In this document: positions 6,823-27,532 of the stretch, piece by piece
Numbering within the stretch: the stretch's first letter is position 1
Layout: each line of letters opens with the position of its first letter
Origin: Candidatus Nanoarchaeia archaeon
Lineage (GTDB): Archaea > Nanobdellota > Nanobdellia > SCGC-AAA011-G17 > JACPNG01
Direction: 5' to 3'
Length of the DNA stretch: 32,762 bases
Assembly (NCBI GenBank): GCA_030745695.1
Contig: JASLOB010000022.1
Coordinates: 1 to 32,762 of the forward strand
Translations under genes and position numbers: made by a program
Notes under the pieces: model-generated
What the model was told of the DNA's origin: nothing
The model's input: the letters and a program-made list of their open reading frames with translations, nothing else
Databases searched by the model: none

Positions 6823-6912
6823 TGCACCGGCCGGGATTCGAACCCGGATCATCGGCTTACTTCGTTTTAGTATCTTGGAAGGCCGAGATTCTAGCCATTA
6901 AACTACCGATGC
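6823..6912 (-). tRNA. tRNA-Gly (UCC anticodon) with an 18-nt intron after position 37
   Basis: Reverse complement GCATCGGTAGTTTAATGGCTAGAATCTCGGCCTTCCA[agatactaaaacgaagta]AGCCGATGATCCGGGTTCGAATCCCGGCCGGTGCA. Intron at 6858-6875. Splice region folds as BHB: CTTC/GAAG 4-bp helix flanked by 3-nt bulges CAA and TAA. Confidence 0.95.
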
Positions 6913-6955
6913 ATAACAAGAAAACTCAAAAACAACTTATATATTTTTCTATATA

Positions 6956-9598
6956 TTAAAACCAACTATTTGCTTTTTTAAATCCTTTATTTATTTGATC
7001 ATTAGTCCAACCTTTCTGCAATAATATCTTCTTTATATTCACATCATCCATCTTAGATTTTCTACATCTTCTAATATATTTTTTGACTACTTTAATATTT
7101 TGTCCTTTAGTTGGAACATCTATCTTTATCAACACCCATTTTTGTTCCCATTCTATCTCTTCAAAAGCATATCTTATTTGGCGTTTATTCCATCCTTTTC
7201 GTAATAATGTTTTAGATATATTCTTCTTTTCTATATTTTTACTTAATGAATTTTTGATAAATTTCTTAACATTTTCTAAATCATTTTTAGCTTTAAATGG
7301 ATTTTTTCCTTTAGTTAATTTTCTAAAATCTAATTTTCCTTTGTAAAAATTAAGATATATTACTCCAACAAGTATTACAATAATGGCTAATATTATCCAT
7401 AACCAAGAAAAACTTCTATTTTCACAGTCTATTGGACAACTTATTTTGTCTTCAAAAGGAATAGAACAAACTTCATCTCCACAAGTATGTGTTTCTTCTT
7501 GAGGTTCTTGTATAATTGTTGTTTCTACATCTAAAGGCACAATAATTGTCTTTAAATTTAATATTTTTTCAATAAACTCTCCATCTATCACATAACTAAA
7601 TTCTACATCACTATTCTTAACTAAACTAGAAAACTTTTTCCTTAACAAAGGATCTCTTTCTACAACTTCGAAATCATCAATGAAATTTATATTATCTACA
7701 TCATTTGTTATACTTTTAGGAATCTTCTCATAAACATAAACATCATCTAAATTTTCTTTTGGATTAATTATTTTTTTTATTAAAGTTTTTTTAACTTCAT
7801 TTCCAGAATTTAAAATTGTTTTTATTGTTGTAGCTTCTACATTAACATTAACTTTATTTTGTAACTCATAAACAGATATTTTGTCATTAGTATCAACAAT
7901 ATTATTTAAATCACTTGGTCCTACAACTGAAATATCTTTTAATATTTCAGTTTCTTTAATTGATTTAGGAAGATTATTCTTAAAAGAATTTATTTTATTT
8001 CTAAGTTTTTCAGTTTCATTTTCTACTTTATCCAAAGAAATATTTGATAATGAGTTTAATTCATTCTTATATTGATTTAGTTGGAATAAAGATTGATCTA
8101 TATCATATTCAAAATATCTTAAAAATTTATTGTTTTTTATTTGATTTAAATCATTTTTAATATCGGATATTTCATCTTCTAAATTAGATGAATCAAACTC
8201 AAATAAATTAATATTTATACTTTTAGCAATATCAGGCCCTAATGTAGCCTTTAAAACTTCTGATTTATTTTGTAATGTAAAATTAAAAGGTTTAAGAGAC
8301 AAACTAATTGAAACATTATCAACAGATTTTCTATTTATTTCATATATAACTCCTGGAAAAGTTATTAGATCATGAAATAGATTATATTCAACCCCTCCAA
8401 TATCTACTAATAGATTAGTTAATACTACTTTTCCTTTAGAATTAGAACTTACAGATATGGGAACTATACAAAAATTATCATCAGGAATCCTACAAAGACT
8501 AACTTCTTGTTCAATGGAATTTTTTAAAAGATTTGTAGAAACATTCACTTTAGATAATTTTATTGGTGTGGTAAAAACAACATTATAATTTGCACCTCTG
8601 GCTTTTATAAAATAATCAAAAAATGATTGTTGTTCACAACTAGTTGAATCTATACCACATTGAAATGAGTTAATTGATTCACTAAAATCAATTGCTATTC
8701 TATAAGCCCCTTCAGAATTCTCATTACGTAAACAAACTAAAAACTCTCCCTCTATTGCTTCTGAAAATTTTAAACTACAACTATTAAAAGAAAAAGAAGT
8801 TCCAGGTTCTGGTAAATCACAATTATTTCCTCCACCTAAAATTTGATTTGATAAAGAGTCATAGGATAGTATAGAAGCTGTTATGTTCCCTCCAATACTT
8901 GTATCATCAAAAAGTCTATAATTAGCATTTATCTCAAAATCTCTTGATGAAGGTAGATCTATTAAACTACAATGATAAGTTTGAGTATCATTCAATATTA
9001 CAGTAGCAGGAACAACATCTAAATCTAAAGTATCTGATTTTACAAATTCATTTTTCAAACCAGTCTTTTCTCCTAGATACCTCCAGTCTACATCTCCATC
9101 ACTCCCTACATCAAAAGTTAATGAAGAAGGATAACTTCCATCAATAACTTCACTAAATATATCCATATCAATAGAACTAATTGAAACTCCAAATGGCAAT
9201 CTAAATCCTATTAATCTTTCACCTAATTGATTATAAATCAATATTTTAGAATCACTAGGATTTATTGCTTTAGTCTCATCATCAGTATTAGCATAAGTTC
9301 TCCCTAATTGAAAAAGCACAGTTCCAATATTCTTGTTATACATAAAACTTCCAAATTTTATAGTAAGATTTGTATCTAATTTAATTGGTCCATTAAAATT
9401 AATAGTTAAATTTCCATCTATAATCTCATCAGTTTTGTAAGATTCTCTATTAAGTCCTATATTTAAACTAGGATTTATATGTTGTAAAGTAGTAAAACTA
9501 GTAAAAGTGTTGTCCATAGACATAAAAAAACCAAAAGCTAATAAAAAAACTAAGAGAACAACCTCTAATCTATGATTATTTACATCACCTCTTTTCAT
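6956..9598 (-). CDS. Large secreted/membrane protein of unknown function, with C-terminal TM and cytoplasmic tandem KGW repeats
   Basis: 880-aa ORF: N-terminal hydrophobic segment, long beta-rich ectodomain with coiled-coil, Cys motif CGDEVCSIPFEDKISCPIDC, TM WLWIILAIIVILVGVIYL, then two repeats with LLxKGWxxxQI. Confidence 0.85.
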   Translation of the reverse strand: MKRGDVNNHRLEVVLLVFLLAFGFFMSMDNTFTSFTTLQHINPSLNIGLNRESYKTDEIIDGNLTINFNGPIKLDTNLTIKFGSFMYNKNIGTVLFQLGRTYANTDDETKAINPSDSKILIYNQLGERLIGFRLPFGVSISSIDMDIFSEVIDGSYPSSLTFDVGSDGDVDWRYLGEKTGLKNEFVKSDTLDLDVVPATVILNDTQTYHCSLIDLPSSRDFEINANYRLFDDTSIGGNITASILSYDSLSNQILGGGNNCDLPEPGTSFSFNSCSLKFSEAIEGEFLVCLRNENSEGAYRIAIDFSESINSFQCGIDSTSCEQQSFFDYFIKARGANYNVVFTTPIKLSKVNVSTNLLKNSIEQEVSLCRIPDDNFCIVPISVSSNSKGKVVLTNLLVDIGGVEYNLFHDLITFPGVIYEINRKSVDNVSISLSLKPFNFTLQNKSEVLKATLGPDIAKSININLFEFDSSNLEDEISDIKNDLNQIKNNKFLRYFEYDIDQSLFQLNQYKNELNSLSNISLDKVENETEKLRNKINSFKNNLPKSIKETEILKDISVVGPSDLNNIVDTNDKISVYELQNKVNVNVEATTIKTILNSGNEVKKTLIKKIINPKENLDDVYVYEKIPKSITNDVDNINFIDDFEVVERDPLLRKKFSSLVKNSDVEFSYVIDGEFIEKILNLKTIIVPLDVETTIIQEPQEETHTCGDEVCSIPFEDKISCPIDCENRSFSWLWIILAIIVILVGVIYLNFYKGKLDFRKLTKGKNPFKAKNDLENVKKFIKNSLSKNIEKKNISKTLLRKGWNKRQIRYAFEEIEWEQKWVLIKIDVPTKGQNIKVVKKYIRRCRKSKMDDVNIKKILLQKGWTNDQINKGFKKANSWF

Positions 9599-13147: not shown

Positions 13148-13300
13148 ATGGCTCTTGAAGAACAAATAGTTTTAATTTTATACATTCTTTTAGGTGCAGT
13201 AGCTGGAATGATATATGCATTAAGAAGAATATTTATCCTAGAAAGAAGAATTTTAGAAATGGATCAAAAACTAGTTACAGCTTTAAAGAAAAAGCGTTAA
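13148..13300 (+). CDS. Small single-TM protein (50 aa), not in the supplied ORF track
   Basis: ATG preceded by SD-like AGGTGAT; translation MALEEQIVLILYILLGAVAGMIYALRRIFILERRILEMDQKLVTALKKKR*; stop shares TTAA with galE. Confidence 0.75.
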   Translation: MALEEQIVLILYILLGAVAGMIYALRRIFILERRILEMDQKLVTALKKKR

Positions 13301-14265
13301 TTTATTTTTTGATGCCAATTCCAAGCATGTTCTATCATTTCATTAATATTAAATTGTTCTTTCCAACCAACTTCTTCTTTAAATCTTTTAGGATCAGCAA
13401 CTAACATTGGAGGATCCCCCTCTCTTTTTTTATCAATAACAACATTAATTTCTTTTTTTGTAATTTGTCTACATAAATCTATTACTTCTTTAACACTATA
13501 ACCTTGTCCTGTCCCTATATTATAAGATTTAGTTTGCATATTTTTTCCTAAATAATTTAAAGCATCTAAATGAGCTTTTGCTATATCAACAACATGAACA
13601 AAATCTCTTATACATGTTCCATCTTTTGTATCATAATCCTCTCCAAATATTTTTATATTATCTCTCTTGTTTAAAGCAACATCTAATACAATTGGGATTA
13701 AATGTGTTTCATCTTTATGTTTTTCCCCTATACTATTATCTAAAGAAGCTCCTGCAACATTAAAGTATCTTAATGATATAGACTTTAAATTATAAGCAGT
13801 ATCATAATATCTTAACACTCTTTCAAAAACCATTTTTGATTCTCCATAAGAGTTAATAGGATTTAATGTATGTTTTTCAATTATTGGAATCTCTTTAGGA
13901 ATACCATATACTGCACATGAAGATGAAAAAATAATTTTATTTACATTATTTTTAATCATAACATCTAATAGATTAAATCCATTAACTAAATTATTTTCAA
14001 AATATTTACTTGGATTCTCAAAAGATTCCCCTACAAGCGCATAGTTAGCAAAATGCATAACAATCTCTATTTTATGTTCTTCAAATAATTCATTAAGTTT
14101 TTTAGTATCTGATAAATCTCCTTGTATAAAAATAGCTTTTTCATCTACAAACTCTTTATTACCTAATTCAAGATTATCATATACTATAACTTCATGTTCT
14201 TTAACTAATTCTTTAACTGCATGACTTCCAATATACCCTGCTCCACCAGTAACGAGAATTTTCAT
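13297..14265 (-). CDS. galE: UDP-glucose 4-epimerase GalE family (NAD-dependent sugar epimerase)
   Basis: GGAGYIGSHAVKEL, SSSCAVYG, SYGESKMVFERVL, SLRYFNVAGA, RDFVHVVDIAKAH. Confidence 0.93.
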   Translation of the reverse strand: MKILVTGGAGYIGSHAVKELVKEHEVIVYDNLELGNKEFVDEKAIFIQGDLSDTKKLNELFEEHKIEIVMHFANYALVGESFENPSKYFENNLVNGFNLLDVMIKNNVNKIIFSSSCAVYGIPKEIPIIEKHTLNPINSYGESKMVFERVLRYYDTAYNLKSISLRYFNVAGASLDNSIGEKHKDETHLIPIVLDVALNKRDNIKIFGEDYDTKDGTCIRDFVHVVDIAKAHLDALNYLGKNMQTKSYNIGTGQGYSVKEVIDLCRQITKKEINVVIDKKREGDPPMLVADPKRFKEEVGWKEQFNINEMIEHAWNWHQKIN

Positions 14266-16753: not shown

Positions 16754-17269
16754 TTAACTATTATCAATTATAAAATTAGCAGCATCTAACAAATCTTTAG
16801 TTATATAATCAGCTAATCTTTCCTTATTTTTGATTCCCAAAAATATGGTTCTACATCCAGCATTCTTTCCAGCCTCAACATCAGACAATTTATCTCCAAT
16901 CATCCAACTTTGTTTTAGACTTATGTTATGTTCTTTAGCACCTTTTAGAATATTTCCTGGATTTGGTTTCCTACAATCACAATTTTCTCCTGATTTATGT
17001 GGACAAAAGTAGATTCCTGTAAATTCTACTCCTTCATTCTTTAATTGAGAAACTAAATATTCTGTAAATCTATAATAATCTTCTTTTGTGAATACATTTC
17101 TTCCAATTCCCGATTGATTTGTTATAATTATTAGCTTATAATCTTTATCAATAAATAATTTTAATGCTTCAATAACATTTGGTCTTAATTCAAAGTCTTC
17201 TACTCTATAAACATCTATTTTATCTACATTTATTGTATCATCTCTATCAAGAAATATTGCTTTATTCAT
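16754..17269 (-). CDS. gmhB: D-glycero-D-manno-heptose 1,7-bisphosphate phosphatase-like HAD phosphatase (GmhB/HisB-N)
   Basis: FLDRDDTIN, ITNQSGIGR, zinc loop CPHKSGENCDCRKPNPG, MIGDKLSDVEAGKNAGC. Confidence 0.88.
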   Translation of the reverse strand: MNKAIFLDRDDTINVDKIDVYRVEDFELRPNVIEALKLFIDKDYKLIIITNQSGIGRNVFTKEDYYRFTEYLVSQLKNEGVEFTGIYFCPHKSGENCDCRKPNPGNILKGAKEHNISLKQSWMIGDKLSDVEAGKNAGCRTIFLGIKNKERLADYITKDLLDAANFIIDNS

Positions 17270-17753
17270 TTTTTATTTTCTCAATCAATTTTGAAGTAGA
17301 CATTCCTTCTTTTAGTTTTATGATATGTATTTTTCCACCATATTTTTTAACAATGGGAGACTCAATACAATCTTCTCCATATTCTGATCCATTAACATGA
17401 ATATTTGGCTTGATGGATTCAACAAATTTCAAACAATCTGTTTTATTAAATATTGTAACAAAATCAACACATTCAAATCCTGCTAACAACTTTGCTCTAT
17501 TTTTTTCATTGTTGTAGGGTCTTTTTTCAAAATCTTCATTATTCATTAATCTTTTCCATTCCCTAACTGAATCATCAGAATTAACTCCAACAATTAAAAT
17601 ATCTCCTTGTTTTTTAGCTTCTTCTAAAATATATAAATGTCCGATGTGTATGATATCAAAACTACCATTTATTGTAACTATAGTTTTTCCTTTAGCTTTT
17701 AATTCATCTACTAATTTAGAAATTTCTTCTCTAGACTTAATTTTACTTATCAT
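17262..17753 (-). CDS. Heptose-1-phosphate nucleotidyltransferase (HldE C-domain/RfaE2-like)
   Basis: Cytidylyltransferase fold motif NGSFDIIHIGHLYILEEAKKQGDILIVGVNSDDSVREWK, typical of RfaE domain II. Confidence 0.88.
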   Translation of the reverse strand: MISKIKSREEISKLVDELKAKGKTIVTINGSFDIIHIGHLYILEEAKKQGDILIVGVNSDDSVREWKRLMNNEDFEKRPYNNEKNRAKLLAGFECVDFVTIFNKTDCLKFVESIKPNIHVNGSEYGEDCIESPIVKKYGGKIHIIKLKEGMSTSKLIEKIKNE

Positions 17754-18714
17754 TTTTCATTGATTTTTCAATTTCAATAGTAGTTGCAGTTGATGTGCCA
17801 AATTTATTTACAACTATTCCTGCAGCATAATTTGCTAAGGTGATTGCCTCTTCCATATTTGCTCCAGAGGATAAAGCTAAAGTTAAGATAGATATCACTG
17901 TATCTCCTGCTCCAGAAACATCATAAACTTCTCTAGCTTTAGTTGGAAAATGTTTAACTTCATCACTAAAAAGGATCATTCCTCTTGGACCTCTTGTGAT
18001 CAATAAATCAGAATCAAATTTTTCTCTTAATTTATTTCCAACTTTATTAATATTATCTTCTTCTTTTCCAAAAACCTCTGCCATTTGACTTGCTTCTTCA
18101 TAATTTGGGGTGATTAAATTAACTCCTTTGTACAACTCTTTATTTTCAGGTTTAGGATCTACAACTAAATATTTATTTTTATCCTTGCATAATCTGATTA
18201 ATTCATCCATAACTTTTTTGTTGATTAATCCTTTTCCATAATCTGAAACTATTACAGAATCAATTTCTGGAACTATTTGTTTTATTTTTTTAATAGCTTC
18301 TTCTTCAATCTCTTCATTTATTGTATCCTTAACATCATAATCTATTCTCAATAATTGCTGATTATTTGCAACTACTCTTTCTTTTAGTATAGTTCTTCTA
18401 TTTGCATCTTTAATTAATAAATCTGTTCTAATTTTTCTAGAATTTAATTTGTTTAATAATATTTCAGCATGTGTATCTTCTCCTATGACTCCAATTATAG
18501 AAACTTTAACACCTAAACTAGCTAAATTATTAGCTGCATTAGCTGCACCTCCAGGAACATAATTTTCCCATCCTACATCTACTAGAGGAATAGGTGCTTC
18601 AGGAGAGACTCTAGAAACATCTCCAAAAACATATTTATCTAATATGATGTCTCCAACTACTAAAACTTTTTTTTCTTTAAATTTACTCATAATTTTAATT
18701 AAATTTTCTTTCAT
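17743..18714 (-). CDS. Heptose-7-phosphate kinase-like PfkB kinase (HldE N-domain/RfaE1-like)
   Basis: VGDIILDKYVFGDVSRVSPEAPIPLVDV (RfaE1-type), GGAANAANNLASLG, DVSGAGDTVISILTLALSSG. Confidence 0.9.
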   Translation of the reverse strand: MKENLIKIMSKFKEKKVLVVGDIILDKYVFGDVSRVSPEAPIPLVDVGWENYVPGGAANAANNLASLGVKVSIIGVIGEDTHAEILLNKLNSRKIRTDLLIKDANRRTILKERVVANNQQLLRIDYDVKDTINEEIEEEAIKKIKQIVPEIDSVIVSDYGKGLINKKVMDELIRLCKDKNKYLVVDPKPENKELYKGVNLITPNYEEASQMAEVFGKEEDNINKVGNKLREKFDSDLLITRGPRGMILFSDEVKHFPTKAREVYDVSGAGDTVISILTLALSSGANMEEAITLANYAAGIVVNKFGTSTATTIEIEKSMKNDK

Positions 18715-19058
18715 AATTCTAATTCATCTAAATTTATTTTTTCGCTCTCTGTTTTTCTATATGTATCTTCATCTTGATGTTGGGTTGAAAACTCAAATAT
18801 TTCAGAATTTTCTAATCCAGTAAATCTATGCCATTGTTCTGGAACTAAATGTTGTATATCTCCTTCTTGCATTATCCATTTTTTATCTTCTAATTCCATT
18901 AATACTCTTCCAGATTGGATGTAAAATGTTTCTTCTTTAATTTTATGTTTGTGCATACTCCCTCTAAATCCTTTTTTTAATATTAATTTTTTACCACAAT
19001 ACTTCTCATTATTTATAATCCAATGTTCTTCACCCCACATTTTAGGAACTATTTTCAT
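18711..19058 (-). CDS. Cupin-domain protein (mannose-6-phosphate isomerase-like)
   Basis: MWGEEHWIINNEKYCGKKLILKKGFRGSMHKHKIKEETFYIQSG...GDIQHLVPEQWHRFTG: double cupin motif; 4-nt overlap with the downstream kinase. Confidence 0.85.
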   Translation of the reverse strand: MKIVPKMWGEEHWIINNEKYCGKKLILKKGFRGSMHKHKIKEETFYIQSGRVLMELEDKKWIMQEGDIQHLVPEQWHRFTGLENSEIFEFSTQHQDEDTYRKTESEKINLDELEL

Positions 19059-22735: not shown

Positions 22736-24037
22736 TCAATCCTCAACAATTGATAAACTAGGATCTTCTAAATATTTTTTTAGTTCATTCATAAATCTAG
22801 ATGTGGTTGCACCATCAAATATTCTATGATCAAATGTAACAGATATTGGTAGAATTTTTCTTATTACTATTTTTCCATCTACTACTCTAGGAATATCTTT
22901 AGCTCTTCCTAATCCTAAAATAGCTGCTTCAGGATAATTAACAATAGGGGTTCCATAACTCCCACCTATACTTCCATAATTTGTTATTGTAAATGTTCCA
23001 CCTTTTAAATCTCCTAAATCAACTTTTCTTTCTTTTGTTTTGTCAGCTAACTCTTTTATTTCTTTAGCTAAATCTAATATTCCTTTTTGATCAACCCCTT
23101 TTACTACAGGAACAATCAATCCATTTTCAGTATCAACTGCTATCCCAAAATTATAATATTTTTTTATGATAATCTCTTCTCCTTGTATTGAAGAATTAAC
23201 TATAGGATATGACTTTATTGCATGTATTAATGCTTTTATTATATATGGCAAGAAAGTTAGTTTAATCCCTTTTTTCTCTGCTACTTCTTTTTGTACTTTT
23301 CTTACATCACTTAATTCAGTAATGTCTATTTCATCCATGGAAGTAACATGGGCAACTTCATTAACTGCCCTCATCATATTATCAGCAATAGTTTTTCTTA
23401 TTCCTTTTAATGGAATTCTATCTACATAGCCATATAAATCATATTTCTTTGTAACTTTAATCTCTTTTTTCTCTTCAATCTCTACTGGAACTTCTCCTTT
23501 AGATGCTTTTTTGATATCTTCTTCTACAACTCTTCCACCTTGTCCAGTTCCTTCTAAAGTAGAAATATCAACATTTAATTCTTTAGCTAATTTTCTTATA
23601 GAAGGTGTTGCTAAAACTTTCTTTTTTTCTTTTGTTTCTTTTTTTGTTTCTTCAACTTTAAATTCTTCATCTGATTCTTCTAAATCTCCAACAACAGAGG
23701 TAGTCTTTCTTTTTTCTTTCTTAGGCTCTTCTTTTATTTCTTCTTTTACTTCCTTCTTTTCTTCAATTTTTTTCTCTTTAGTTTCTTCAACTTTCTCTCC
23801 TTCTTCCCCTATTACAGCTAATGTTTCTCCAACTTTAACAGTTTCTCCTTCTTTAAAGTTTAATTTTAAAATTTTACCAGATTTAGGACTTGGAATATCC
23901 ACAACAGCTTTATCAGTCTCAACTTTAGCTATTGGATCATGTTCTTTTATATCATCCCCTTCTTTAACAATCCATTCTACTAATTCACCTTCAGCTATTC
24001 CTTCACCAACATCTGGAAACTTAAACTCATATGCCAT
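22736..24037 (-). CDS. pdhC: 2-oxoacid dehydrogenase E2 (dihydrolipoamide acyltransferase)
   Basis: Lipoyl domain (KFPDVGEGIAEGELVEW...VETDKAVVDIPSP), E3/E1-binding domain (ATPSIRKLAKELNVDISTLEGTGQGGRVVEEDI), catalytic DHRIFDGATTSRFMNELKKYLEDP. Start MAYEFKFP at 24037 with SD-like GAGGT preferred over the supplied 24073. Confidence 0.95.
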   Translation of the reverse strand: MAYEFKFPDVGEGIAEGELVEWIVKEGDDIKEHDPIAKVETDKAVVDIPSPKSGKILKLNFKEGETVKVGETLAVIGEEGEKVEETKEKKIEEKKEVKEEIKEEPKKEKRKTTSVVGDLEESDEEFKVEETKKETKEKKKVLATPSIRKLAKELNVDISTLEGTGQGGRVVEEDIKKASKGEVPVEIEEKKEIKVTKKYDLYGYVDRIPLKGIRKTIADNMMRAVNEVAHVTSMDEIDITELSDVRKVQKEVAEKKGIKLTFLPYIIKALIHAIKSYPIVNSSIQGEEIIIKKYYNFGIAVDTENGLIVPVVKGVDQKGILDLAKEIKELADKTKERKVDLGDLKGGTFTITNYGSIGGSYGTPIVNYPEAAILGLGRAKDIPRVVDGKIVIRKILPISVTFDHRIFDGATTSRFMNELKKYLEDPSLSIVED

Positions 24038-24755
24038 GATAATCGACCTCTTTTTTATTGAATACTTCAGCAAATCTATAAACCAATTTATCTTTAACTT
24101 CTTGTAAAACTAATTCTCTACCTAAAATTGTTTGCATACTAATAGGTGGAGTTTTACTTACTGGAAATCCACAAGGATCTATTAATTCAGTGTAAGGAAT
24201 ATTATGAGAATTATTAACATTTAATGCAAATCCATGATGGGTATAAATCCATTCTCCTCTAGTTTCAGTTCCTATACCTTTAGTACAAAGGACTTTGTAT
24301 TTACCATCTTGATTATACCATGTTGCCCTATATGGTTTATCAGTTTTTGGATTCATAGTATCTACTCTTGTGATTAGAATGTTAAAATCTTTAGCAGTTC
24401 TTATCATAACTTCTTCAAAAGATATCATAAGTTCACGTATACTAGGTCGTCTCCATTTCATTATCGTATATCCAACAATTTGACCAGGACCTAAAAAAGC
24501 TGCTCCACCCCCTCTCTCAGTTTTCTCATGAAAATCTATATTATACTTACTTAATTCAGCCTTATCAACTTTTAATTTATTCCATCCATTATTACTTATT
24601 CCAAATGTAATTGTTGGTGGATGTTCCACTAATATTAAAGTATCAGATGTTTCTCCATCTATTCTTCTTTGAAGTTCTTTTTTTTGTCGTTCCCATGATT
24701 CTTCATAAGATATATTCCCTAAATCTATCACATCTAATCTATTTTCCAAATTCAT
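24027..24755 (-). CDS. lipB: Lipoyl(octanoyl) transferase LipB
   Basis: LVEHPPTITFG, RGGGAAFLGPGQIVGYTIM, GIGTETRGEWIYTHHGFALNVN, DPCGFP. Start MNLENRLDV at 24755 (preceded by GGTGTGAGGG) preferred over 24818. Confidence 0.93.
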   Translation of the reverse strand: MNLENRLDVIDLGNISYEESWERQKKELQRRIDGETSDTLILVEHPPTITFGISNNGWNKLKVDKAELSKYNIDFHEKTERGGGAAFLGPGQIVGYTIMKWRRPSIRELMISFEEVMIRTAKDFNILITRVDTMNPKTDKPYRATWYNQDGKYKVLCTKGIGTETRGEWIYTHHGFALNVNNSHNIPYTELIDPCGFPVSKTPPISMQTILGRELVLQEVKDKLVYRFAEVFNKKEVDYHGI

Positions 24756-24816
24756 TCCCTCACACCTAATAATATACAATAAAAACTTTTTTAAGTATAA
24801 AAATGTTATCTTAAAC

Positions 24817-25248
24817 ATGCCTGATTTTAAAACACATTATGCAACTATAATGATAACTTTACTTTTTGTATTAGGATTCTTTTGGTTTTTACAAAATCCG
24901 AGAAGTTTAGAAACAGATAGTGGATTAGAAGATATTACTGGAATGGATATTTCTGAAATTTTGTTAGATAGTATAACTTCTTCTAAAGAAGATAATAATG
25001 AGATTATGAAGAATGCTGAAAGGATAGTCTTTGATTATTTGATTAGTAATAATATAGATGGAGATATTCAAAAATCTTCTAAAGAAGATGAATTGTTTAG
25101 AATAGAAGTAGATCTATTTAATTCTGAATTTGATGTTGTATTTGATTTAGATAGTGGTGGAAATATAAAATGTTTTCAAAGATTCAATGATAAAAAATGT
25201 TATGATAACTTCGATGATCTTAACATAAGATTTTTATCTATGTCCTAA
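24817..25248 (+). CDS. Hypothetical protein with N-terminal TM segment
   Basis: 143-aa ORF, HYATIMITLLFVLGFFWFLQN near the N-terminus; two Cys near the C-terminus. Confidence 0.65.
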   Translation: MPDFKTHYATIMITLLFVLGFFWFLQNPRSLETDSGLEDITGMDISEILLDSITSSKEDNNEIMKNAERIVFDYLISNNIDGDIQKSSKEDELFRIEVDLFNSEFDVVFDLDSGGNIKCFQRFNDKKCYDNFDDLNIRFLSMS

Positions 25249-25344
25249 ATTTACATTCTTTTCACTTGACTAAACACATTTATATAATATAAAATCTTAG
25301 ATATTTTATCAATAAAATCAATTCTAACACATAAACTTAAGACA

Positions 25345-25524
25345 ATGGAAATCGAAGCCTCCACCTCTTCAATAATAAGTCATATAGAAGAGATTGTAGC
25401 TCTTCTAGAAAGAAACCCAAATGCTACAGAAGGAGATCGTATTTATGTTGAAACTCAAATTAAAAATCTTCCTGAGAGACTACAGGGAGAATATTTAGAA
25501 AGAGTTGAGGTAATAACATATTAA
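25345..25524 (+). CDS. Small soluble protein (59 aa), not in the supplied ORF track
   Basis: TATA-like TTTATATAA about 70 nt upstream; translation MEIEASTSSIISHIEEIVALLERNPNATEGDRIYVETQIKNLPERLQGEYLERVEVITY*. Confidence 0.55.
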   Translation: MEIEASTSSIISHIEEIVALLERNPNATEGDRIYVETQIKNLPERLQGEYLERVEVITY

Positions 25525-26483
25525 AAACTCATAACTTTATCTATAGCTTTTTTTATTCTATCAATATTTGGCATGTAATACTTTTCTAATTTAGGAAGAG
25601 GGACTACAATATCGTATCCAGTTACTCTTTGTATAGGTGCTTCTAAACTTAATAATTCTTTTTCATTTATTAAGGCTATTATCTCAGAAGCTAATCCTAA
25701 AGTCTTTGGGGCTTCATGAACAATAATACATCTTCCTGTCCTAGAAACAGAATTTAAGATAGCTTTAGTGTCTAATGGCTTTAATGTTCTTAAATCAATT
25801 ACTTCTATATTATATTTAGAATCTTTAATTGCTTTTAGTGTTTCTCTAACCCAAGATCCATAAGTTATAATTGTTAAGTCTTCTCCTTGTTTAATTATAT
25901 TAGCTTTTCCTAATGGAATTGTATATTCTTTTTCTGGAACTTCTTCTTTAAATGCTCTATAAATTTTCTTAGGTTCAAAAAATATAACAGGATCAGGGTC
26001 TCTTATTGCACTTATTAATAATCCTTTAGCATCATAAGGTCTAGAAGGAATCACAACTTTTAATCCAGGTGTGTGTATAAAATAAGTTTCTGGAGAATCT
26101 GAATGATGTTCTAATGCTTTAATGCCTCCACCAAAAGGACTTCTTACTACAAGTGGAACATTAAACATTCCTCTTGATCTATTTCTGATTCTAGAAGCAT
26201 GACTTATTATTTGATCTAAAGCAGGCATTAAAAATCCTTCAAATTGTATTTCTGGAATTGGTTTTAATCCATTTAATGCTAACCCTATAGATGATCCAAC
26301 AATACCTGATTCAGCTAAAGGGGTATCAAAAACTCTATCTTTATATTTTTGAAACAATCCTTCTGTAACTCTAAAAACCCCTCCATCTATGCCTACATCC
26401 TCTCCTAATAGAACAATAGACTTATCTTTCTCCATTTCTTGGCTTAATGCCATATTTATTGCTTGAACTAAATTAGCTTTCAT
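25521..26483 (-). CDS. pdhB: Pyruvate dehydrogenase E1 component beta subunit
   Basis: LLGEDVGIDGGVFRVTEGL, FDTPLAESGIVGSSIGLALNG, EIQFEGF, HHSDSPETYFIHTPGLKVVIPSRPYDAKGLL. Confidence 0.95.
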   Translation of the reverse strand: MKANLVQAINMALSQEMEKDKSIVLLGEDVGIDGGVFRVTEGLFQKYKDRVFDTPLAESGIVGSSIGLALNGLKPIPEIQFEGFLMPALDQIISHASRIRNRSRGMFNVPLVVRSPFGGGIKALEHHSDSPETYFIHTPGLKVVIPSRPYDAKGLLISAIRDPDPVIFFEPKKIYRAFKEEVPEKEYTIPLGKANIIKQGEDLTIITYGSWVRETLKAIKDSKYNIEVIDLRTLKPLDTKAILNSVSRTGRCIIVHEAPKTLGLASEIIALINEKELLSLEAPIQRVTGYDIVVPLPKLEKYYMPNIDRIKKAIDKVMSF

Positions 26484-27532
26484 TTTTCATTTTGTTGTTC
26501 TTTTAGATTATCAGTTAATTCTGAATACATATAATTGAATATTTCTTCTCTCTTTGGAGCTTCTAAAGATTCCATTTTTTTAACAGCTTCATCAATCTCT
26601 TCATTAAACTTTTTATCTAATTCATCTTCATAATCTTGAGCCCATAATTTTTTACTAGACATATAGTTTCTTAACCTATCAATAGGATCTTTTTTCTTCC
26701 ATTGATTAACCTCTCTATCTGTTCTATATTTTTTAGAATCATCAGATGTAGTATGATCTCCTCTTCTATAAGTTAAAGCTTCAATTAATGTAGGCTTGCC
26801 TTTCTTTGCTCTTTCTAAAGCTTCTTTTGTTGCCCTATACATTGCAAAAACATCATTACCATCTACTCTTATTCCATACATCCCATAAGCAATTGCTTTT
26901 TGTGCGATAGTTTGTGCTTTAGTTTGTTTGTTAACAGGAAGAGAGATAGCATATTGATTATTTTGACAAATAAAAACTAAAGGAACTTCAAAAACAGAAG
27001 CAAAATTCATAGCTTCATGAAAATCTCCTTCTGATGTTGCTCCATCTCCAAAATAAGTTATAACTGCTCTTGATTCTTTTTTTATTTTACAAGCCCAGGA
27101 ATAACCCATGGCATGTAACATATGTGAACCAACAGGAATAGAAACTGTAAAAATATTAGCATCTTTAGTAAATTTCATACCTCTTTCATCACCTTTCCAA
27201 TAAGCTAAGTATTGATCTATAGGAATGTTTCTTGATAAATAAACCCCTTGTTCTCTAAAACTTGGAAAAACAAAATCTTCTTTTCCTAAAGCAAAAGCAC
27301 TTCCAATATGTGTTGCTTCTTGTCCTAAACAAGATGCATAAGTTCCTAAACGACCTTCTCTTTGTAATTTCAAAGCTTTCTCATCAAGTATTCTTGTTAA
27401 TTTCATTAACTCAAACATTTTTTTAATATTTTCACCATTTAACTTTGGCATTAATTTAGAATCAACTTTTCCTTTCTCATCTAATACACTTAGAAATTCT
27501 ACATTAAATTGATGTATCACCTCTTTAGGCAT
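26480..27532 (-). CDS. pdhA: Pyruvate dehydrogenase E1 component alpha subunit
   Basis: TPP motif YFGDGATSEGDFHEAMNFASVFEVPLVFICQNNQYAIS, GQEATHIGSAFAL, YRRGDHTTSDDSKKYR. Confidence 0.95.
   Translation of the reverse strand: MPKEVIHQFNVEFLSVLDEKGKVDSKLMPKLNGENIKKMFELMKLTRILDEKALKLQREGRLGTYASCLGQEATHIGSAFALGKEDFVFPSFREQGVYLSRNIPIDQYLAYWKGDERGMKFTKDANIFTVSIPVGSHMLHAMGYSWACKIKKESRAVITYFGDGATSEGDFHEAMNFASVFEVPLVFICQNNQYAISLPVNKQTKAQTIAQKAIAYGMYGIRVDGNDVFAMYRATKEALERAKKGKPTLIEALTYRRGDHTTSDDSKKYRTDREVNQWKKKDPIDRLRNYMSSKKLWAQDYEDELDKKFNEEIDEAVKKMESLEAPKREEIFNYMYSELTDNLKEQQNEK

Follow-up and report, generated by a model that had tools for sequence, protein, structure and literature searches.

The stretch of DNA analysed here (the window, 32,762 nucleotides) is contig 22 of an archaeal MAG of 546,515 bases in 35 contigs that is 76.6% complete. 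Four ORFs on its minus strand overlap one another in series, the cupin and kinase genes by 4 nt (18711-18714), the kinase and nucleotidyltransferase genes by 11 nt (17743-17753), and the nucleotidyltransferase and GmhB genes by 8 nt (17262-17269). An ORF check thus agrees with the first-pass annotation, which had placed four overlapping genes here and named their products a cupin, an RfaE1-like kinase, an RfaE2-like nucleotidyltransferase and a GmhB-like phosphatase. These names are upheld by profile and structure-database matches (Table 1), with the kinase and phosphatase above their curated cut-offs and the nucleotidyltransferase below its equivalog cut-off. A plasmid megablast search with the cluster gave no match.

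Table 1. Features of the window and the matches on which their names rest.
Feature	Coordinates	Strand	Matches and remarks
Cupin, 115 aa; proposed sedoheptulose-7-phosphate isomerase	18711..19058	-	PF07883
RfaE1/HldA-type heptose-7-phosphate kinase (PfkB family), 323 aa	17743..18714	-	TIGR02198, 375.9 bits (NCBIfam cut-off 345); PDB 4e84, HldA heptose-7-phosphate kinase, E 7e-59 (next, ribokinase, 4e-16)
RfaE2/HldC-type heptose-1-phosphate nucleotidyltransferase, 163 aa	17262..17753	-	TIGR02199, top NCBIfam model, 151.4 bits (equivalog cut-off 181.5); PDB best 5x9q, E 1e-23
GmhB-type heptose-1,7-bisphosphate 7-phosphatase (HAD), 171 aa	16754..17269	-	TIGR00213, 163.6 bits (NCBIfam cut-off 149.6); PDB 3l8e, E 2e-30
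UDP-glucose dehydrogenase-like ORF, 285 aa	14267-15124		N-terminal and central domains match; C-terminal domain without match
GalE-type NDP-sugar 4-epimerase	13297..14265	-	TIGR01179, 429.5 bits (TIGR02197, 140.5); conserved neighbour in G178
Apparent pyruvate dehydrogenase-type genes	22736-27532		Lipoyl E2, E1 transketolase-like domain, LipB-like
Transketolase-like match	25956-26474		Read as dehydrogenase E1 subunit; near the lipoyl E2 gene

The proposal that the cluster serves heptose-nucleotide biosynthesis holds: kinase and phosphatase both score above curated cut-offs, and another part of the genome has a glycan cluster with three genes of the GT9 (heptosyltransferase) family. These GT9 genes are on contig 23 (L300 9998-12222, and L301), in a polysaccharide cluster with further glycosyltransferase-like genes and a flippase-like gene. 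For the two that were tested, heptosyltransferase models score best, under cut-off; the GT9 family was found in none of the archaeal control genomes. Given this setting, the source archaeon may plausibly build heptose into a surface glycan.

Contamination of the contig by a bacterium, which would undercut this reading, is not indicated. The contig is archaeal, judging from its matches to the archaeal PINA ATPase and Dph6 models and from synteny with G178, the nearest searched relative (same family, 91% complete). The order of cupin, kinase and nucleotidyltransferase is identical in G178. Downstream of the window cluster lie genes for an AI-2E-type transporter, an adenine phosphoribosyltransferase, a short UDP-glucose dehydrogenase and GalE, and the G178 neighbourhood matches in its transporter, phosphoribosyltransferase and GalE genes, along with genes sized and ordered like SecD and SecF.

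As first noted, neither GmhA nor HldD is encoded in the window, and the suggested genome-wide check detected neither in the source assembly (by family searches, at 76.6% completeness), leaving the three GT9 genes as its positive result. GmhA was not detected in G178 either. A weak SIS_2 match in the source assembly (E 0.01) falls in a stretch whose only long ORF is IspH-like, and four Epimerase-family matches are to GalE, a protein that by sequence is GDP-mannose dehydratase-like, and other SDR proteins; this GalE is the GalE-type ORF of the window, which was rejected as HldD on its model scores. Searches for transketolase found none in the source assembly or in its relatives G178 and G162, the one transketolase-like match in the window being read as part of an apparent pyruvate dehydrogenase-type gene set in this small archaeon. 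Where sedoheptulose-7-phosphate comes from is a question not specific to the cupin version of the cluster, since G162, in which transketolase was likewise not found, carries GmhA and no cupin.

The cupin contains no SIS domain and matches only cupin-type proteins, by sequence and by fold. Its score against PF07385, the D-lyxose isomerase family, is 19.0, below the cut-off of 20.8. Cupins that the structure model (pLDDT 97.7) resembles include phosphomannose and D-lyxose isomerases; among its closest matches are Thermococcus phosphomannose isomerases as well as KdgF and oxalate decarboxylase. The aldose that D-lyxose isomerase forms from a ketose has the manno/lyxo configuration at C2, and turning sedoheptulose-7-phosphate into D-glycero-D-manno-heptose-7-phosphate calls for the same outcome. 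When the cupin profile is aligned with the Bacillus subtilis enzyme (2y0o), H36, H38, K41, E43, H77 and E89 fall on H69, H71, K80, E82, H137 and E150. By this alignment H36, H38, E43 and H77 correspond to the metal site of three histidines and one glutamate, and K41 and E89 to the catalytic lysine and glutamate. K6, K23 and R101 are candidate residues of the phosphate site. None of the six aligned residues varies among 76 cupins or among 41 phage cupins of greater divergence. Asp163 of the isomerase is matched by D96, a position that varies (Asp or Glu in 75 of the 76 cupins); D98, close by, is invariant. In the Thermofilum enzyme the counterparts of the six are H75, H77, E88 and H143, which are metal ligands, and K86 and E156, and mutation of the equivalents of the latter two abolishes activity (PMC8378251).

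To get a comparative view that did not depend on the cupin, we searched 371 genomes of the phylum for the nucleotidyltransferase, a sample selected independently of the cupin, and found a match in 123. Two versions of one operon recur among the loci: GmhA, HldD, kinase and GmhB/nucleotidyltransferase in one (L039, L042, L044, L053), and the same order with the cupin in place of GmhA in the other (L040, L043, L049). Fusions follow the same pattern, with the kinase fused to the cupin in L045 and others and to GmhA in L052. The exchange occurs within genera as well. In genus g174, one locus has GmhA (L238) and another the cupin (L237); in genus g162, GmhA is present in L242 and the cupin occupies the same place in L239 and L240, the upstream genes of L240 being of the same size. 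The L239 cupin (genome G183) has a stop codon within the matched stretch and may therefore be a decayed copy. Between the isomerase slot and the kinase, L242 also encodes a GSU2086-family protein (6907-7830; NF052581, 414 bits), and other g162 loci have similar-sized ORFs at this position.

The first-pass annotation had suggested that the cupin might stand in for either an isomerase or an epimerase step. Slot exchange and mutual exclusivity support the isomerase half of this suggestion, which is now the best supported of the first-pass proposals. The epimerase half is disfavored, as the cupin co-occurs with HldD and in L041 is fused to it, the HldD part scoring above its cut-off (277.7 against 274.6); the cupin was accordingly rejected as an HldD substitute.

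Exclusivity was assessed in the 80 archaeal genomes, of the 123, with the better nucleotidyltransferase matches. A strong GmhA (E < 1e-50) was found in 37, a strong cupin (E < 1e-28) in 23, and both in none (Fisher p 1.4e-8, ignoring kinship, with both thresholds set after the E-values were seen). At the looser search-limit thresholds, seven of the 80 hold both SIS and cupin matches, never both at the kinase locus. Among 82 distinct cellular kinases, the gene nearby or fused was the cupin only in 42, GmhA only in 36, neither in 4 and both in none; because some of these kinases had been gathered by way of the cupin, the lack of GmhA is all that can be read from these counts. On a kinase tree with sparse bacterial sampling, the state switches between cupin and GmhA at least 14 times, five of these changes being forced by well-supported branches. 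The five independent pairs on those branches all point in the same direction, giving a sign test value of 0.0625, the minimum attainable with five pairs.

A scan with the cupin returned 75 loci, Patescibacteria and Planctomycetota among them, and no GmhA homolog above 25 bits was present at any of these loci or at 80 viral cupin loci. Fifty of the cupin-locus genomes were examined, and 35, including Patescibacteria, have a cupin linked or fused to the kinase. None of the 35 contains a strong GmhA (E < 1e-50), with four weaker SIS matches. GmhA was found in none of six Planctomycetota genomes whose cupin is solo and whose strong heptose kinase lies elsewhere. A real exception is a pair of Opitutaceae genomes that have GmhA beside the kinase plus a solo cupin. 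Solo relatives of the cupin also lie beside NeuB/KdsC-like genes or beside enolase and PRPP synthetase-like genes (L116 7986-8360, L128, L136, L139), and in a Pacearchaeota locus the cupin is fused to a PF00483 sugar-nucleotidyltransferase domain (L134 7980-9017). Since some relatives are solo and far from heptose genes, the family may hold several sugar isomerases with various substrates.

The same arrangement appears in phages. The window kinase as a lone query yielded no viral match, and the viral kinase scan required a family alignment. Phage loci carry a compact set of nucleotidyltransferase, short heptose kinase, small HAD protein and cupin, often with an HldD-like gene, one of which exceeds the HldD cut-off (304.6 against 274.6); examples of the set are L173 6536-8342, L164 5040-7701 and L178 5339-7102, with many further viral loci. 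The phage kinase scan retrieved 80 loci, of which 71 have the cupin, none GmhA and nine neither (several of the nine on short or truncated contigs), the 71 not being an unbiased rate because the seed kinases were taken from cupin loci. The GmhA profile is able to detect viral GmhA, as a scan with it returned 80 viral loci; 19 of these have a heptose kinase, and none of the 19 has the cupin. In PHROGs the phage cupin is labeled 'cysteine dioxygenase' and the small HAD protein 'phosphoheptose isomerase', both of which are probably wrong.

Given that related archaea, bacteria and phages use one gene or the other at the kinase locus, and never both, the cupin is probably an unrecognized replacement for GmhA. 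We consider it likely that the operon makes nucleotide-activated D-glycero-D-manno-heptose and that the cupin is a metal-dependent sedoheptulose-7-phosphate isomerase in place of the non-homologous GmhA. The cupin, holding a divalent metal, probably Mn2+, through its three histidines and one glutamate, would isomerize the ketose sedoheptulose-7-phosphate to D-glycero-D-manno-heptose-7-phosphate, probably by a cis-enediol route as proposed for D-lyxose isomerase. The kinase would then add the 1-phosphate, GmhB would remove the 7-phosphate, and the nucleotidyltransferase would yield the NDP-heptose, which the GT9-family transferases encoded elsewhere in the genome may put onto a surface glycan. 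Support at the level of sequence comes from the gene identities, the lack of a detectable GmhA in the assembly, the slot exchange, the mutual exclusivity and the conserved catalytic residues; we infer the reaction catalyzed, the metal bound, the nucleotide attached and the glycan ultimately formed.

The main competing explanation is that the cupin is a ketol-isomerase for some other sugar phosphate, converting for example fructose-6-phosphate to mannose-6-phosphate or acting on a pentulose, so that the cluster makes a different NDP-sugar. The Thermococcus phosphomannose isomerases among the structural neighbors, the family members that are solo or beside NeuB/KdsC-like genes, and the lack of a transketolase find in the source genome all fit such a role. 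Still, the operons in which the cupin and GmhA replace each other have a kinase, a GmhB and an HldD that curated models assign specifically to heptose, and HldD is over its cut-off in the cupin-HldD fusion and at one phage locus, which makes another sugar phosphate an unlikely substrate. It is less probable again that the cupin is an RmlC-like epimerase or other modifying enzyme acting on the NDP-heptose, with GmhA simply missing or supplied by a host. Cupin-fold epimerases do act on heptose nucleotides in some bacteria, DPANN archaea are often host-dependent, and the assembly is 77% complete. Yet the invariant residues (His-x-His...Lys-x-Glu...His...Glu) are those of metal-dependent aldose-ketose isomerases, and one would not expect a modifying enzyme to trade places with GmhA in a single slot, or to track the absence of GmhA in archaea, Patescibacteria, Planctomycetota and phages.

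Many cupins are non-enzymatic, and the cupin could in principle be a regulatory or structural accessory whose exclusion of GmhA reflects lineage history only, the label counts across related genomes being non-independent. The kinase tree with its 14 or more changes, the swaps within genera, the viral repeat of the pattern and the complete conservation of the catalytic set make this very improbable. Returning to the isomerase assignment, we consider the general form of the claim likely too: metal-dependent cupins would constitute a second, non-homologous family of sedoheptulose-7-phosphate isomerases, replacing GmhA in many DPANN archaea, in Patescibacteria, probably in Planctomycetota and in many phages, and surveys requiring GmhA would have missed those heptose pathways.

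In the usual view GmhA catalyzes the committed first step toward ADP-heptose, which is an immune agonist. If the assignment is correct, heptose, including ADP-heptose, could be made by many archaea, bacteria and phages that currently count as pathway-negative, and proteins annotated as 'cupin domain' (or, in one phage library, 'cysteine dioxygenase') would gain a specific function. One would then also have to ask what purpose heptose serves in archaea and phages. Searches of the open-access literature, with subscription papers outside their scope, returned nothing joining a cupin with sedoheptulose and heptose, and nothing relevant for a cupin together with GmhA.

The closest known system is the Gram-negative ADP-heptose pathway (GmhA, HldE or HldA/HldC, GmhB, HldD). 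By curated models the kinase, phosphatase and nucleotidyltransferase described here are members or close relatives of its enzymes, and GT9 transferases are present in the source genome. Unlike that pathway, the source archaeon has a cupin in the slot of the undetected GmhA, HldE split into two proteins, and no detected HldD, a 6-epimerase needed only for the L-glycero form. The new part is the cupin: the cluster would work like the bacterial pathway, with a first enzyme that lies outside the GmhA family and is related to D-lyxose isomerase but no more than that. Archaea and viruses are already known to have NDP-heptose enzymes, according to a review (PMC11461863). As described there, Tang et al. 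2024 (Science) reported archaeal, viral and eukaryotic NDP-heptose enzymes, with functional sets shown in vitro, from a survey that intersected nucleotidyltransferase matches with the three other known enzyme types. Their sets resemble the present cluster in combining archaeal or viral heptose nucleotidyltransferases with partner enzymes, and differ from it in that the review makes no mention of a cupin in the isomerase's place (PMC11461863). That a cupin can take over from an unrelated sugar-phosphate isomerase has a precedent in the archaeal cupin-type phosphoglucose isomerase, although that enzyme has another substrate, belongs to another cupin subfamily and is not among the sequence matches listed. 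With the cupin D-lyxose/mannose isomerases (PF07385; 2y0o, 7nzo), the present protein would share the fold, the metal ligands, the catalytic lysine and glutamate and the stereochemistry at C2. In contrast to them, it is shorter and single-domain, is linked in the genome to a heptose kinase, and presumably acts on a phosphorylated substrate.
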